Source of the DNA: SAR202 cluster bacterium bin87
GTDB taxonomy: Bacteria; Chloroflexota; Dehalococcoidia; Lucifugimonadales; UBA3495
Direction: 5' to 3'
NCBI GenBank assembly: GCA_002238825.1
Contig: MPNC01000003.1
Location: forward strand, 186,001-250,000
DNA: 64,000 nucleotides
The notes under the pieces are model-generated. The model ran no database searches, was not told the DNA's origin, and saw nothing but the letters and a program-made list of their open reading frames with translations. The position numbers and the translations under genes are program-made. This document shows positions 23,406 through 33,380 of the stretch, piece after piece (the stretch's first letter is position 1; every line of letters starts with the position of its first letter).

Positions 23406-25631
23406 ATGGTCGCGGTCACCAGCGAGTCCACCGATCTGATCGCACGCGTTTCCGAATACGTGGATGATGCGAACCAACTGGAACGCATCCGGTCGGCCTA
23501 CGACTTCGCGGAGCGGTGCCACGACGGGCAGATGCGGCGATCCGGCGACCCGTATATCGTTCATCCCCTGGCTGCGGCCACCATTCTGGCCGACCTTTAC
23601 CTTGACCCTGACACCATTATGGCAGCCCTGCTCCACGACGTGTTGGAGGACTGCGGGGTCGGCGTGGACGAGTTGGCGGATCGCTTTGGACCCAGCGTCT
23701 CCCGCCTGGTTGACGGCGTTACCAAGCTGACCCGTGTCGATTATCGGCCCCCGGACTCCGAGGTCAACGGCGCCGCTCCATCCGAGAACCTGTATGCCGA
23801 GAGCCTGCGGAAGATGCTGGTCGCCATGGCCGAGGACATCCGCGTAGTCCTCATCAAGCTGGCCGACCGGCTGCACAACATGCGCACGCTGGACGCGCTC
23901 TCTGAAGACAAACGCCGGCGAATCGCCCAGGAGACCCTGGACGTGTACTCGCCCCTGGCCCATCGGCTCGGCATCTGGGAGCTCAAGTGGCAGCTGGACG
24001 ACCTGGCTTTCCGGCACCTGAACGAGACCCGTTACCGGGAGATCTCCCGGATGCTGGCGGCGCGACGATCCCAGCGGGAGGCCTATGTGGCGGATGTGGC
24101 CGACCGGCTCAAGACCGAGTTGGCGGACAACCGCCTGCGCGCGGACGTGAGCGGCCGACCCAAGGGCATCTACTCCATACACAACAAGATCGAAAAGTAC
24201 GCCGCCGACGGAAAGGAGCTCAGCGACATCTACGACCTGTACGCCCTTCGCGTAATCGTCGATGAGATCGCCGACTGTTACACCGCGCTGGGTATCACCC
24301 ACCGCATGTGGAGCCCGATCCCCGGCCAGTTCGACGACTACATCGCCACGCCGAAGAAGAACATGTATCAGGCGCTGCATACCACGGTGCTGTGCGACGG
24401 CGGGCACCCGCTGGAAGTGCAGATCAAGACCCGCGAGATGCACCAGGTGGCGGAATACGGCGTGGCCGCTCATTGGCGCTACAAGGAACAGCGCGGCTCA
24501 GCCAATGGGAACGCCTCATTCGAGGAGCGGATGACCGGCTTGCGCCAGCTGTTGGAGTGGCAGCGCGAGACGCCGGACACCGACGAGTTCCTGGAACGGG
24601 TGCGGGAAGACCTGTTCCATGACCAGGTCTTCGTCTATACGCCCAAAGGCGACATCGTGGAGATGGCCGCCGGCTCTACCCCCATCGACTTTGCCTACAA
24701 GATCCACACCGATCTGGGAAACCGCATCTCCGGCGCCAAGGTGAACGGCAAACTGATGTCGCTGGACACCCCGCTTCACAACGGCGACACCGTTGAGGTG
24801 GTGGCCGGAAAGACCGGCCGGGGTCCGTCGCCCGACTGGCTGAACCCGGCGCGCGGATACGTGGCGACCAACAGCGCGCGTCAGAAGATCCGCTCCTGGT
24901 TCAACCGGCAGGCCCGCAGCGCCAACATCACCCGGGGCCGCGAGCTTCTGCGCCGCGAGCTGCGTCGCATGGGCATCAAGATGTCCGACCGCGAGGTGCT
25001 CGAAGCGTGTCGCTACGACAGCATGGAGGACCTCCTGGCCGCACTGGGCTCCGGCGAGTTGAGCGACTCCGCCCTGTCCGCGCGACTGACCCAGTTCCGC
25101 AACGATGAGATGGTTGAAGCCGAGTGGATGCCCAAGCTGCGCGGGTCCACGTCCTTGTCCAGCCCGTCCTCGGGCATTTCGGTTTTGGGCGTTGGCGACC
25201 TGCTGACCAGCATCGCCCGCTGCTGCAACCCCATCCAGGGCGACCCGATCATCGGGTTCGTGACGCGTTCTCGTGGCGTCAGCGTACACAAGGTGGGCTG
25301 CATCAACGTGCTCAATGAGGACGAGCAGGAGCGGCTGGTGCCGGTTTCATGGGGGCAGAAGCAGGAGCTGTATCCAGTACGCATCCGCATCGAGGCCATG
25401 GACCGCGTGGGCCTGCTGCGGGACGTCACCACCAAGGTCTCTGACGACAAGATCAACATCGCATGGGCCGTGACGCGGGAGAACGACGACGCCACGGTCA
25501 GCATGGAATTCACGATTCATGTGAAAAACCTCGAAGAGTTGAACCGCGTGTTCTCCCGCATCGAGGGGATTCGCGGGGTCACCTCGGTCAGCCGCGTCAC
25601 CAGCAGCCCCCTGAGGCAGACCGAGCGCTGA
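23406..25631 (+). CDS. Bifunctional (p)ppGpp synthetase/hydrolase (RelA/SpoT)
   Basis: 741 residues from ATG 23406, preceded by CAGGAGGG; the frame stays open further upstream through the repeat but that part has no homology. Domains in order: HD hydrolase with intact HDVLED (77-82), synthetase (about 210-400, GRPKGIYSIHNKIEKY and YQALHTTV), TGS (about 415-475, VYTPKGDIVEM and DFAYKIHTDLGN), a Cys-containing region (RCCNPIQGDPIIGFV, about 607) and a C-terminal ACT domain. The intact HD motif indicates both synthesis and breakdown of the alarmone, i.e. a Rel-type enzyme controlling the stringent response. It is probably the main one in this genome. Confidence 0.95.
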   Translation: MVAVTSESTDLIARVSEYVDDANQLERIRSAYDFAERCHDGQMRRSGDPYIVHPLAAATILADLYLDPDTIMAALLHDVLEDCGVGVDELADRFGPSVSRLVDGVTKLTRVDYRPPDSEVNGAAPSENLYAESLRKMLVAMAEDIRVVLIKLADRLHNMRTLDALSEDKRRRIAQETLDVYSPLAHRLGIWELKWQLDDLAFRHLNETRYREISRMLAARRSQREAYVADVADRLKTELADNRLRADVSGRPKGIYSIHNKIEKYAADGKELSDIYDLYALRVIVDEIADCYTALGITHRMWSPIPGQFDDYIATPKKNMYQALHTTVLCDGGHPLEVQIKTREMHQVAEYGVAAHWRYKEQRGSANGNASFEERMTGLRQLLEWQRETPDTDEFLERVREDLFHDQVFVYTPKGDIVEMAAGSTPIDFAYKIHTDLGNRISGAKVNGKLMSLDTPLHNGDTVEVVAGKTGRGPSPDWLNPARGYVATNSARQKIRSWFNRQARSANITRGRELLRRELRRMGIKMSDREVLEACRYDSMEDLLAALGSGELSDSALSARLTQFRNDEMVEAEWMPKLRGSTSLSSPSSGISVLGVGDLLTSIARCCNPIQGDPIIGFVTRSRGVSVHKVGCINVLNEDEQERLVPVSWGQKQELYPVRIRIEAMDRVGLLRDVTTKVSDDKINIAWAVTRENDDATVSMEFTIHVKNLEELNRVFSRIEGIRGVTSVSRVTSSPLRQTER

Positions 25632-27103: not shown

Positions 27104-27649
27104 TCACAACAGGGTCATTATCGCCAGGGCCAGTCCGGCCAGCGCGATGGCGAACCCGCCGATCAGCATCCAGGTGAGAACTCGGCGGATGCGCCCCCGG
27201 CGTTGGCGCGTCCTCCGCAGGTCGGCCCGGTAGTCCCAGGGACGGCGGATACGGTCGCCGTGCCGCCAGACTCCGCGCCGCCGGCGTTTGGCCTCCGCCT
27301 CCGCTTCCGGGAACCCCAGGTCACGCCCTCCGTAGCGCCGGTACCACCACGCCATGCCGGAGCGCACCATCTCCACGTTGACCGACTGGGCCCGCCGGCG
27401 GCGGTAGAGCAGACCCACCGTGCGCCCGTACCGGTCGGTGGCCACGACATCCAGTCGGATGCCGCCGCGTCGAACCAGCGTCTCGAGCTGCTTGCGCGAC
27501 TCCTGGCCGTAGGGCTGGGCAAGCTCCGGAGCGTCAATGCCATAGAGCCGCACCGGGAATGGCTTCCTCAGAAAGCTGAACAGCCCCCCGTATTTGACCT
27601 CCAGCGAGTCGCCGTCGATGACCCGCCGTATCCGCACCCTGCGGGCCAT
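27104..27649 (-). CDS. Thermonuclease-like (SNase fold) protein with C-terminal membrane anchor
   Basis: 181 residues. SNase-fold blocks: RVIDGDSLEV, VRLYGIDAPELAQPYGQESRKQLE (metal Asp and catalytic Arg of the PVRLYGIDAPE motif), DRYGRTVGLLY, and GMAWWYRRYG. After a highly basic stretch (about 125-155) there is a terminal hydrophobic helix (WMLIGGFAIALAGLALAIM). The nuclease domain would therefore lie on one face of the membrane, tethered at its C-terminus. It is the last gene of a three-gene minus-strand group with a small coiled-coil membrane protein and a rhodanese. Confidence 0.9.
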   Translation of the reverse strand: MARRVRIRRVIDGDSLEVKYGGLFSFLRKPFPVRLYGIDAPELAQPYGQESRKQLETLVRRGGIRLDVVATDRYGRTVGLLYRRRRAQSVNVEMVRSGMAWWYRRYGGRDLGFPEAEAEAKRRRRGVWRHGDRIRRPWDYRADLRRTRQRRGRIRRVLTWMLIGGFAIALAGLALAIMTLL

Positions 27650-27916: not shown

Positions 27917-28771
27917 CTACACAGTCAGCGGCGTGTCGTCGCGGTTGGCCCACTCGCCCATGGACGCGTCGTAGTTCTTGGCATTCTCGAAGCCCACCAG
28001 GCGCAGAACGAAGTTTCCGTGCGCCGCACGGATGCCGGCCTGTCAATAGGAGTACGCCGTCTTGTCCGGCGTGATGCCGTGCTCCGTCAGGATGCGCCGG
28101 ATCTCCGCTGCCGGCTTGAACTCGTGGGTGTTGCGATCCATCAGGTGGAACCACTCCAGATGCACCGCGCCGGGAACATGGCCCGGCCGCTTGTTCTGAT
28201 AGTTGGGGGCGGAGCCGTCCCACTCGCCGTCACTGCGAACGTCCCACACCACCACGTTGTCCCCGAGCCCCCCATCCAATGAACAGGCCTCCTTGAGTTC
28301 GTCGCCGGTGACGATGAACGAGTCGTCGGCGCGCGGCGTGAAGGTCACCGACGCCGGCGCCCTGGCTCGGCCGAAGTCGACGGGCTGCCCGGCGTTCACC
28401 CACGCTCGCCAGCCGCCGTTGAGTACCTTGACGTTGGTGTGGCTGTAGTAGTTGAACACCCACCAGATGCGTGCCGCCGTCAGTCCCTGGGCGTGGTCGT
28501 ATGTCACCACCGTCGTATCGTCGCCGATGCCCAGGCCCTCGGCCATGGCCTTGAACTGCTCCGGCGTCATCACGTGCTGCCGATTGGTGTCGGGGTTCTT
28601 GGCCCAGTTGTCAGCGACGTGGGCCGCGCCGGGGATGTGGCCGCGCTGCCAGGCGTCGGCGGTGTTGGCGCAGTCCAGCACCACCACGTTGGGATCGTCC
28701 AAATGGGCGGCGACCCAGGCGGCGTCGGTCAGGTACTCGGGGTGAGCGTAATCGTCGGTATGAGTCGTCAT
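27917..28771 (-). CDS. Two-domain rhodanese (thiosulfate/3-mercaptopyruvate sulfurtransferase), candidate selenoprotein with Sec at residue 243
   Basis: 284 residues if UGA at 28045-28043 is read through; otherwise the frame ends after 242. Domain 1 (about 10-140) is the inactive type (VLDCANTADAWQRGHIPGA ... YDHAQGLTAARIWWV). Domain 2 (about 160-284) contains VVWDVRSDGEWDGS and RPGHVPGAVHLEW, then KTAYSY-UGA-QAGIRAAHG. In this family the active-site loop reads YCQ/K-x-G-x-R-A-A, so the UGA stands exactly where the catalytic Cys belongs. The frame continues with normal family sequence (FVLRLVGFENAKNYDASMGEWAN) to TAG at 27917, and the next gene starts 27 bp later. A SECIS-like hairpin follows the UGA. 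CAGGAG precedes the ATG. Confidence 0.85.
27998..28042 (-). promoter_or_regulatory. Candidate bacterial SECIS element in the rhodanese coding region
   Basis: Directly after the in-frame UGA, CAGGC (28042-28038) can pair with GCCTG (28002-27998). Within this is a perfect hairpin CCGTGC-GGC-GCACGG (28031-28017). The apical loop begins 17 nt after UGA and starts with GG. This fits the known bacterial SECIS rules of a short apical loop with a G in its first positions, 16-37 nt from UGA. It is needed for SelB-dependent selenocysteine insertion. Confidence 0.7.
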
Positions 28772-28939
28772 GGAGCGGCTCCTGCAGTCAGGTGTGAGGT
28801 GCCGGGATTGTAGGCGGCGACGGCGCGGCGGGTCAACGGGCCAGCTTCACCAAGTGATACGATGGCACACGGGCTGGTCTGCCTGTAGGATCGACCCGTA
28901 CTCTGGGAATCCTGCCTGTTGTCCACGCACCGTTTCGAT

Positions 28940-29302
28940 ATGGTTTGGGAAGTTCGATTTCACACCGACTTCGATCCAGATTTCCACGATTTCACTGAGT
29001 CCGTACAAGACGAGCTTTTAGCTAAACTGCTGCTATTGCAAACTTTCGGGCCAACTCTAGGCCGATCGCACGTGGATACTTTGCAAGGTTCGCGATACCC
29101 GAACATGAAAGATCTTCGCTTCAACGCCGATGGTGGGGTTTGGAGAGTAGCGTTCGCATTCGATCCCATCCGACGATGTATTGTTCTCGCGGGGGCAAAC
29201 AAATCTGGAATGAGCCAAAGCCTGTGTTACCGAAGACTGATTGCCACGGCAGACGCCCGCTATCGCAATCATCTGGCTAACACGCGCCAGACTGGGGCAT
29301 GA
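28940..29302 (+). CDS. RelE/HigB-like toxin (phage Gp49-like, DUF891)
   Basis: 120 residues from ATG 28940; an upstream TTG at 28919 is in frame. The pattern WEVRFHTDFDPDF, FGPTLGRSHVDTLQGSRYPNMKDLRF and WRVAFAFDPIRRCIVLAGANKSG is that of Gp49-like HigB mRNA interferases, which cut mRNA on the ribosome. The C-terminal ADARYRNHL is the usual family end. The gene for the cognate antitoxin follows after 1 bp but appears degraded. The A+T content is higher than in flanking metabolic genes, in keeping with a mobile toxin-antitoxin module. Confidence 0.85.
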   Translation: MVWEVRFHTDFDPDFHDFTESVQDELLAKLLLLQTFGPTLGRSHVDTLQGSRYPNMKDLRFNADGGVWRVAFAFDPIRRCIVLAGANKSGMSQSLCYRRLIATADARYRNHLANTRQTGA

Positions 29303-29303
29303 C

Positions 29304-29600
29304 ATGACTACCTTGGCCGGAAATATCGCTTGTCTCGATGCCGAACGCCGAGACAAAGTGGAAAAGCGCGCAATCGAACTGATCGCAGAAGAAGAAAGGA
29401 TCAGACGCGCGAAACTCGAGACCAAACGAACGGCTGTGTCCAACGGTAGCGTGCGCGTCCAACTGTCCTCCAAACCCCGTTACCTACGTAACACTAGGAC
29501 GTTGTCCATAGCTAGGAGGCGTTCCAAGGGTGGCCGCCGCATCGCCGGTGGGCGGTCGCGCGGAATAGGTCATCGTCGGTATGTGAGCGTGTCACGCTAA
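29304..29600 (+). pseudogene. Degenerate HigA-like antitoxin
   Basis: 98 codons. The first 33 residues (MTTLAGNIACLDAERRDKVE and following RAIELIAEEERIRR) match the N-terminus of HigA-type antitoxins that pair with Gp49 toxins. The expected helix-turn-helix (LTQxxVAxxLxVxQxxVSxxER) is missing; instead an Arg-rich sequence (SIARRRSKGGRR) follows. Near 29550 another frame could encode a GGRAE-like HigA ending before a stop. This looks like one or more frameshifts or deletions, leaving a remnant. It could still bind the toxin through the N-terminal helix. Confidence 0.6.
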
Positions 29601-29767: not shown

Positions 29768-31672
<1,905 letters not shown>

Positions 31673-31714: not shown

Positions 31715-31921
31715 ATGAACGGCAGGGAATTCGTGAGACGCGCCCGACGCTTCGCCAGGGCCAACGGGCTGGAATGGCACTTTGACCCGGCTTGGGGCAA
31801 AGGCAGCCATGGCAGGTTTTTCATAGGTGAACGGTTCACTACAGTACAGCACGGCGAAATCGCCATGAAGACGCTGGCAAATATGCTGAGAGACTTGGGA
31901 ATCAACCGAAGGGAGTTTTGA
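31715..31921 (+). CDS. hicA: HicA-like mRNA interferase toxin
   Basis: 68 residues. The double-stranded-RNA-binding-like HicA core is clear: GREFVRRARRFARANGLEW, then GKGSHGRFFIGERFTTVQHG with the catalytic His in GSHGR, and the C-terminal MKTLANMLRDLGI. HicA toxins cleave mRNA during stress or phage infection. The hicB-like gene overlaps or follows at once. The gene starts 42 bp after the acyl-CoA ligase stop and belongs to a different functional unit. Confidence 0.9.
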   Translation: MNGREFVRRARRFARANGLEWHFDPAWGKGSHGRFFIGERFTTVQHGEIAMKTLANMLRDLGINRREF

Positions 31922-31923
31922 TC

Positions 31924-32358
31924 GTGAACTACCTGTATCCTTGCAACATTGAAGGCAATGAGGAAGATGGGGAAGGTTTTGCAGTCGCATTTCCCGATGT
32001 GTATGGAGCCAACACGGGCGGTTTTACGTTCAAGGAGTCCATCATCCTCGCCGAGGATTGCCTGGTTGTAGCCCTGAGTTGTTACATCGACCTCGGCAAA
32101 GAACTGCCCACACCCAGCCCTTTTCGAGAGGGGCAGGAACTGTTGACCGTCCAGCCTCTTATCGCCGCCCAACTCGACCTATACACCGCCATGCGCGAGC
32201 AGAACATCAGCCGTGCGGAACTGGCGGAACGGCTGGGCATCAGCAACGACGCCGTGGATAAACTGTTGAGCCTGGACTACTGCACGCCCATAGCCGAGGT
32301 TACCAAAGCCCTCCGCGCCGTCGGCTGCCAGTTGGCGGCGACGGAACAGGTGGCCTGA
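31924..32358 (+). CDS. hicB: HicB-like antitoxin with C-terminal helix-turn-helix
   Basis: 144 residues from GTG 31924, which has GGGAG eight bases upstream; a TTG at 31918 overlapping the hicA stop is the alternative. The N-terminal HicB fold reads YPCNIEGNEEDGEGFAVAFPDVYGANTGGFTFKESIILAEDCL, where EGFAVAFPDV is typical. The C-terminal 60 residues form an XRE-type helix-turn-helix (NISRAELAERLGISNDAVDKLL). The antitoxin should bind HicA and repress the operon. Both members look intact, unlike the HigBA pair 2 kb upstream. Confidence 0.9.
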   Translation: MNYLYPCNIEGNEEDGEGFAVAFPDVYGANTGGFTFKESIILAEDCLVVALSCYIDLGKELPTPSPFREGQELLTVQPLIAAQLDLYTAMREQNISRAELAERLGISNDAVDKLLSLDYCTPIAEVTKALRAVGCQLAATEQVA

Positions 32359-32381
32359 CCATCGTTCGAGGTCAAAACGTC

Positions 32382-33380
32382 ATGCTGTTGGATGAACTTG
32401 TCGGCGTAATTGAAGCGCTGAAGCAACGCATACGGACACATGGGGCGACGCTGCGGGCCAATGAGATCAGGACACGTGTGGCGCTCATTGACCCGCTGCT
32501 GGTGGCGCTGGGTTGGGATGTATCCGATCCGGCATTGGTTACGCCTGAGTACGCCGTGGGTGAAGGCAGAGCCGACTACGCTCTGCACGGGTCGGAGTCG
32601 ATACCCGCGGCCATGGTGGAAGCCAAGCGGCTTGGGCACGCGCTCAACGACGATGAACGTATGCAGATGCTGAACTATGCGAATGCACGTGGGGTGCGAT
32701 ACGCCGCCGTTACCGATGGTGACGTGTGGGAGTTTTACGAAGTCTTCAAACAGGCGCCACTGGAAGATCGGCGGCTGTTGAGCTTGCGCGTTGCCAACAC
32801 GCCGGCCCACGAACTGGCGTTGCGACTGTTGCTGCTTTGGCGGCCCAATTTGGCATCCGGGCAGCCGATGTCAGCGAATGAGCCAGTTCTAGTTCCGTTT
32901 ATTGAGCCAGACAATGGGGAAGATGTGGCTCCGGTTTCATCGGACGCCACAAAGGCTCCGACAGAGGGATCTCCGACTGATCGCGGTCCCGCAAGACCCA
33001 CAGCGTCACCGGCCACCAGCACATCGGAGTGGCTACCTTTAGCAAATTGGAATCCCTCCTCCGGAACGTCCGCCCCCCAACTGATACGATTTTCAGACGG
33101 ATCGGAAAAGCCCGTGGGGCGATGGACACAATTATTGATGGCTGCGGGAGAATGGCTCCAATCAACTGGGAAGTTGGCGCCGGTCCCAAAACCAATACTT
33201 AACGGACGTACTGAAAAGGTGCTCGATGTCGACCCGTCTGGCTTCAGAGCACCGCGACGTATCTTAGACACCGATTTTCATTTGAACGCTCATGGGAATG
33301 CCCAAAATTTGCGGGATAAGACCCGAGCGCTGCTACGCGCCTGCGGTGAAGATCCCAGCAACGTGCGCGTCCGAGCGTGA
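32382..33380 (+). CDS. Restriction-enzyme-like (HsdR N-terminal type) nuclease-fold protein
   Basis: 332 residues. The N-terminal domain (about 1-150) is of the type I restriction R-subunit kind: NEIRTRVALIDPLLVALGWDV, the catalytic Asp in GEGRADYAL (about residue 67) and the E-x-K pair in AMVEAKRLG (about 77-84), then ARGVRYAAVTDGDVWEFYE. No helicase domain follows. After a variable Pro/Thr/Ser linker (about 165-215), a C-terminal domain (about 240-332) with VGRWTQLLMAAGEWLQSTGKL is unrecognised. Such stand-alone proteins occur next to toxin-antitoxin and restriction loci. It begins 23 bp after hicB. A defence role is inferred. Confidence 0.8.
   Translation: MLLDELVGVIEALKQRIRTHGATLRANEIRTRVALIDPLLVALGWDVSDPALVTPEYAVGEGRADYALHGSESIPAAMVEAKRLGHALNDDERMQMLNYANARGVRYAAVTDGDVWEFYEVFKQAPLEDRRLLSLRVANTPAHELALRLLLLWRPNLASGQPMSANEPVLVPFIEPDNGEDVAPVSSDATKAPTEGSPTDRGPARPTASPATSTSEWLPLANWNPSSGTSAPQLIRFSDGSEKPVGRWTQLLMAAGEWLQSTGKLAPVPKPILNGRTEKVLDVDPSGFRAPRRILDTDFHLNAHGNAQNLRDKTRALLRACGEDPSNVRVRA

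Follow-up and report, generated by a model that had tools for sequence, protein, structure and literature searches.

We identified a gene in SAR202 cluster bacterium bin87 that very probably encodes a two-domain rhodanese-type sulfurtransferase with selenocysteine (Sec) as the catalytic residue of its C-terminal domain, the UGA codon being decoded through SelB and a hairpin in the mRNA. The gene lies within a 64,000-nucleotide stretch of contig MPNC01000003.1 (the window), and its features are collected in Table 1. At the level of sequence, the case for Sec is made by the exchange of UGA and Cys codons among homologues, by the decoding machinery, by the hairpin, and by selection on the tail that follows the UGA. 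That Sec is inserted in living cells is inferred, as are the reaction chemistry, the substrate and the part the enzyme plays in physiology.

Table 1. Features of the predicted selenoprotein gene and its neighbours (window coordinates).
Feature	Position	Strand	Basis
Gene for a predicted two-domain rhodanese (sulfurtransferase) selenoprotein, Sec at residue 243 of 284	27917..28771	-	Translation, Pfam, 1uar
In-frame TGA, codon 243, probably read as selenocysteine	28043..28045	-	Homologue column TGA or Cys
Coding tail 3' of the UGA, 41 codons + TAG, QAGIRAAHG...GEWANRDDTPLTV	27917..28042	-	Within-genus substitution counts
Putative bSECIS hairpin UCCGUGC-GGC-GCACGGA, 7 bp, -9.9 kcal/mol	28016..28032	-	Folding energy, synonymous control, covariation
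N-terminal-domain site YD, Asp92 in the catalytic-Cys position	28494..28498	-	Asp in 161/162 homologues
Staphylococcal-nuclease-like gene, downstream	27104..27649	- (same strand as rhodanese)	Pfam SNase 9e-22
Acetate-CoA ligase (AcsA), upstream divergent neighbour	29768..31672	+	TIGR02188 775.8 bits, cut-off 724.95

The reading frame opens with an ATG at 28771 and runs through codons 1-242 down to 28046. After a single internal TGA the same frame continues through to a TAG at 27919-27917. The context of Sec243 is ...TAYSY-U-QAGIRAAHGNFVLR..., and the active-site motif reads ...YSY-U-QAGIRAAHG.... Retranslation reproduced the frame given in a preliminary description of this DNA, from 28771 to 28046 and on past the UGA to the TAG at 27917. 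The spacing reported there was likewise obtained on recounting: the next small ORF (27889) is 27 bp away if the UGA is read through, as against 153 bp if translation terminates.

The protein matches the Pfam Rhodanese family (PF00581) in two stretches (1.6e-32). The closest solved structure, 1uar, aligns with residues 8-282 including the tail (9e-44), and Sec243 falls on the Cys of YCRIAER (YCRIAERSSH), which bears out the earlier claim that the UGA coincides precisely with the active-site Cys of the second domain. The fold and catalytic site are also supported by homology to 3hwi. With two rhodanese domains, a C-x4-R type loop (U-QAGI-R) in the second and Asp92 in the first, the protein is of the COG2897 / SseA type. 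In classical rhodaneses the first domain is inactive and has Asp at the corresponding site, and the N-terminal domain of this protein is, from its sequence, probably non-catalytic as well. Every sulfurtransferase equivalog tested (NCBIfam) gave a score well under its cut-off. The 3-mercaptopyruvate sulfurtransferase model NF008557 reached 106.7 of the required 250 bits and the ExtH selenite/tellurite rhodanese model NF040901 reached 88.5 of 200 bits. Because all tested sulfurtransferase scores fall below the cut-offs, no substrate can be assigned, and assignment through these equivalogs was rejected with none passing.

A match to the rhodanese is present in 48 of 50 genomes of the family. Each family match of at least 46% identity contains exactly one internal stop, which is always TGA, and paralogues of 30-36% identity have no internal stop with the exception of one TAG-bearing match. 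The named relatives are metagenome-assembled genomes of the Chloroflexota / Dehalococcoidia. Among 393 genomes sampled from the class, close homologues occur in 152, TGA being present in some of them and no stop in others; the TGA form is also present in a second class of the phylum (G541, G618). Across 174 Chloroflexota homologue rows the codon-243 column consists of 113 TGA and 61 Cys codons and nothing else, and TAA or TAG does not occur in any of these rows. Removal of duplicates leaves 101 TGA, 55 TGC and 6 TGT. The TGA is retained in every close homologue. The Sec motif of the window gene is UQAG, compared with UQGG in most relatives. In addition, some genomes of the family have a tandem rhodanese pair in which each copy has its own TGA and hairpin (L175, L176, L177 and L178, in G021, G002, G005 and G001).

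The sequence downstream of the UGA is well-conserved at the protein level. In within-genus pairs, synonymous and nonsynonymous differences number 669 and 119 in the codons after the UGA, against 4686 and 2349 in the codons before it. Judged by these counts the tail is under strong purifying selection, tighter than that on the body of the gene. This substitution pattern indicates that the tail is translated, as untranslated sequence would look different. TGA is a stop codon in translation table 11, and the window genes ending at 25631 and 27104 do terminate in TGA, as would be the case here if a plain nonsense mutation had left a pseudogene with a truncated one-and-a-half-domain product. However, some 100 non-redundant genes from many genera have the TGA in common and it is never replaced by TAA or TAG, constraint is stronger on the tail than on the body, and Cys substitutes elsewhere. 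Given the conservation of both the TGA column and the tail, we rejected nonsense mutation, the probability of which is negligible. The preliminary description had proposed such an alignment; only TGA or Cys was found in the column, and the other stop codons or decayed tail that would have counted against its reading did not occur in the relatives.

The genome (4.96 Mb in 67 contigs, rated 100% complete) encodes the four components whose search had been proposed, selA, selB, selC and selD. The tRNA-Sec is found on contig C28 (66 bits) and is identified by ARAGORN as tRNA-SeC with anticodon tca (UCA). SelB (352.7 bits, above the cut-off) is located at C49:353609-355465 and shares its contig with the rhodanese. 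SelA scores 544.5 bits, and SelD scores 373 bits with an in-frame TGA of its own in SHCAG-U-AAKL. Selenophosphate synthetase with Sec at this site is a known type. Since SelD carries an in-frame TGA, Sec decoding would serve at least two genes. A hairpin, GGACCUGGGCCAGGUCC, follows the TGA of this selD (G000:C42:681408-682328, L062).

SelA was detected in 71 of 75 genomes with the TGA form of the rhodanese, compared with 255 among all 393 genomes sampled and with 52 of 66 genomes that have only the Cys form (p 0.006 for TGA-form against Cys-only genomes). The four TGA-form genomes with no SelA match are G078, G245 and G327, which are 71-78% complete, and G406, with about 260 contigs and a completeness of 91%.

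The putative SECIS element of the window gene consists of a 5' arm (28032-28026), a loop (28025-28023) and a 3' arm (28022-28016). The CCGTGC/GCACGG hairpin noted earlier is thereby confirmed, with nucleotide 12 past the TGA as the first of its core. The distance from the UGA to the start of the apical loop, GGC (3 nt), is 17 nt. The hairpin exceeds chance expectation, since its stability was not matched by any of 300 synonymous recodings of the 45 nt that follow the TGA (z = -3.2, p = 0.003). The published bSECIS model has a loop of 3-9 nt with G in the first two loop positions, an upper stem of 4-16 bp, a distance of 16-37 nt from the UGA and an energy of at most -7.5 kcal/mol (PMC13188914). 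The window hairpin, with its three-nucleotide GGC loop, 7 bp, 17 nt and -9.9 kcal/mol, satisfies this model, and the earlier suggestion that the sequence after the UGA be examined for such an element thus has a positive answer.

A hairpin follows the TGA in all 101 non-redundant TGA genes. All four bSECIS constraints are satisfied in 99 of these 101 but in only 7 of 61 Cys genes, and a screen restricted to the three registers in use (+/-1 nt), with at least 6 bp required, retained 100 of 101 TGA genes and 2 of 61 Cys genes. The median z relative to synonymous recoding is -1.8 for TGA genes and +0.1 for Cys genes. Third codon positions under the stem are mostly frozen in the TGA genes (Arg5 is CGT in 80/81 and Ala6 is GCG in 79/81), whereas codon choice at the same sites spans the full range among Cys genes. 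The stem shows compensatory change in four of its seven pairs, with a covariation score of 0.204 compared with 0.053 when shuffled; no sliding control came close to 0.204. Seven independent pairs of Sec and Cys genes on supported branches were used to allow for kinship among the genes, and the hairpin goes with Sec in all seven (median p 0.016).

These comparisons bear on whether the UGA might be read as some other amino acid, either because the code has changed or because a suppressor inserts Trp or Cys. Insertion of Cys would preserve the nucleophile, Cys being the alternative residue at codon 243. Such a reading is nonetheless very improbable in view of the full set of Sec machinery in the genome and of a SECIS hairpin that is found with TGA but not next to Cys codons. 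Genome-wide reassignment of UGA was rejected because TGA serves as the terminator of several other window genes.

The hairpin is found at three positions. In 81 genes the apical loop begins 17 nt downstream of the UGA; this distance is 25 nt in 13 genes and 20 nt in 6, with one ambiguous case. The 25-nt hairpin, GGCGAACA-GUN-UGUUCGUC, occurs in three genera of the window's own family (g12, g13, g16; loci L030, L032-L037, L039, L040, L042, L045, L046 and L182). The 20-nt hairpins, such as CGCGGC-GUUC-GCCGCG and GGCCGC-GUUC-GCGGCC, are from family f17 and show compensatory changes of their own. The 17-nt and 25-nt hairpins have one strand in common and are mutually exclusive, and a change of His CAC to Asn AAC accompanies the swap from 17 to 25 nt in 13 of 13 genes. 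In the tree the 25-nt forms are nested among 17-nt forms with Sec kept throughout, and the hairpin was therefore relocated while Sec persisted. How many such moves took place is uncertain, perhaps two or three.

A tree built without the trait columns requires nine changes between Sec and Cys. When rooted with the paralogues it implies eight losses of Sec to Cys, or one gain and seven losses, with weak deep branches. These sequences fit a history made up mostly of losses of Sec, but because paralogue rooting does not settle the root state, no direction is firmly claimed.

In the mechanism that we propose, SelA would make Sec-tRNA-Sec with selenophosphate supplied by SelD, and SelB with this tRNA would bind the hairpin, which spans nucleotides 10-26 beyond the UGA, so that the UGA is decoded as Sec and the conserved tail translated. 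As in other rhodaneses, Sec243, in the U-Q-A-G-I-R loop, would then most likely accept sulfane sulfur, thiosulfate, mercaptopyruvate and persulfides being examples of possible donors, and form a selenenyl-sulfide (Se-S-) intermediate from which the sulfur is handed to an acceptor. Its predicted role as sulfur (or selenium) acceptor is sound by homology. The N-terminal domain, in which Asp occupies the equivalent position, would have a structural role.

Decoding of UGA as Sec is, as a matter of general knowledge, partial, and the gene might give two regulated products, a terminated form of 242 amino acids and the Sec form, with termination acting as a selenium sensor. We consider this improbable; the truncated form would lack the catalytic residue and the C-terminal helices, and no feature of the sequence demands it. 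A joint proposal of two parts is also unlikely. It holds that Sec serves selenium chemistry, as a perselenide carrier to SelD or in a dedicated organosulfur/organoselenium enzyme, and not a faster sulfurtransferase, and that the hairpin shifts between 17 and 25 nt by exchange of exclusive hairpins with Sec kept. Selenium-loaded rhodanese is a term that occurs in the literature, so a role as selenium carrier is conceivable, though not favoured.

The genes near the Sec-rhodanese were considered for clues to the function of the enzyme. In loci of the same genus, the rhodanese is followed downstream by the SNase-like gene and by a DASS anion symporter. The SNase, the DASS transporter and SpoT/RelA looked genus-bound with no clear pathway, and function from these neighbours was rejected. 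A divergent acetate-CoA ligase lies beside the Sec-rhodanese in no fewer than five of the family's genera (L043, L035/L037, L040/L045, L184, L179/L180); it was also set aside as a functional clue, as it recurs across genera yet points to no clear pathway. Outside the family the neighbours differ. Also near the gene, at window positions 28919-29600 and 31918-33380, are a Gp49-like (HigB-type) gene, a HicB-like/HTH gene and a weak HSDR_N match, which are possibly remnants of toxin-antitoxin or defence systems.

Automatic annotation would cut the enzyme short before its catalytic residue in more than 100 related genes. The gene set amounts to a natural experiment, with one enzyme as Sec or Cys, about nine exchanges and three SECIS placements. 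It allows direct tests of why selenium is used in a sulfurtransferase and of how a SECIS within a coding region arises, disappears and moves.

The family itself is already known. A rhodanese-related selenoprotein of the COG2897/SseA type was predicted from three sequences in Sargasso Sea data by Zhang et al. in 2005 (PMC1088965), so the preliminary description was correct in recalling a rhodanese selenoprotein from marine metagenomes. The same COG2897 selenoprotein was reported again from GOS in 2008 (PMC2398784), and a 2026 review lists it as 'Rhodanese-like form 4, UxxG' (PMC13188914). As far as we found, the breadth of the family in Chloroflexota with about nine Sec/Cys switches, the placement of the SECIS at 17, 20 or 25 nt after the UGA, the tandem Sec copies and the recurrent divergent acetate-CoA ligase neighbour have no earlier description and are apparently new.

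The window gene fits the published description of form 4. It has in common with the Sargasso Sea protein the COG2897 type, Sec at the rhodanese Cys, a UxxG motif (UQAG here), a predicted bSECIS and a marine source; the match to that form (AACY01016424, MQG53192.1, MCY3690685.1) is one of description and motif only. The single-domain rhodanese selenoproteins (form 1, UxxS; form 3, NF041203, CxU; the TsoB rhodanese/DsbD fusion) also combine the rhodanese fold with Sec, but their Sec motifs differ from that of the window protein, and NF041203 matches only 63 of its residues with 36 bits against a cut-off of 115. With the two-domain Cys rhodaneses (TST, MPST/SseA; 1uar, 3hwi, 3aax, 1urh) the protein shares the fold over its whole length, the Asp of the first domain and the C/U-x4-R loop. 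It differs from them in scoring below the MPST equivalog cut-off and in having a predicted Sec where theirs is Cys.
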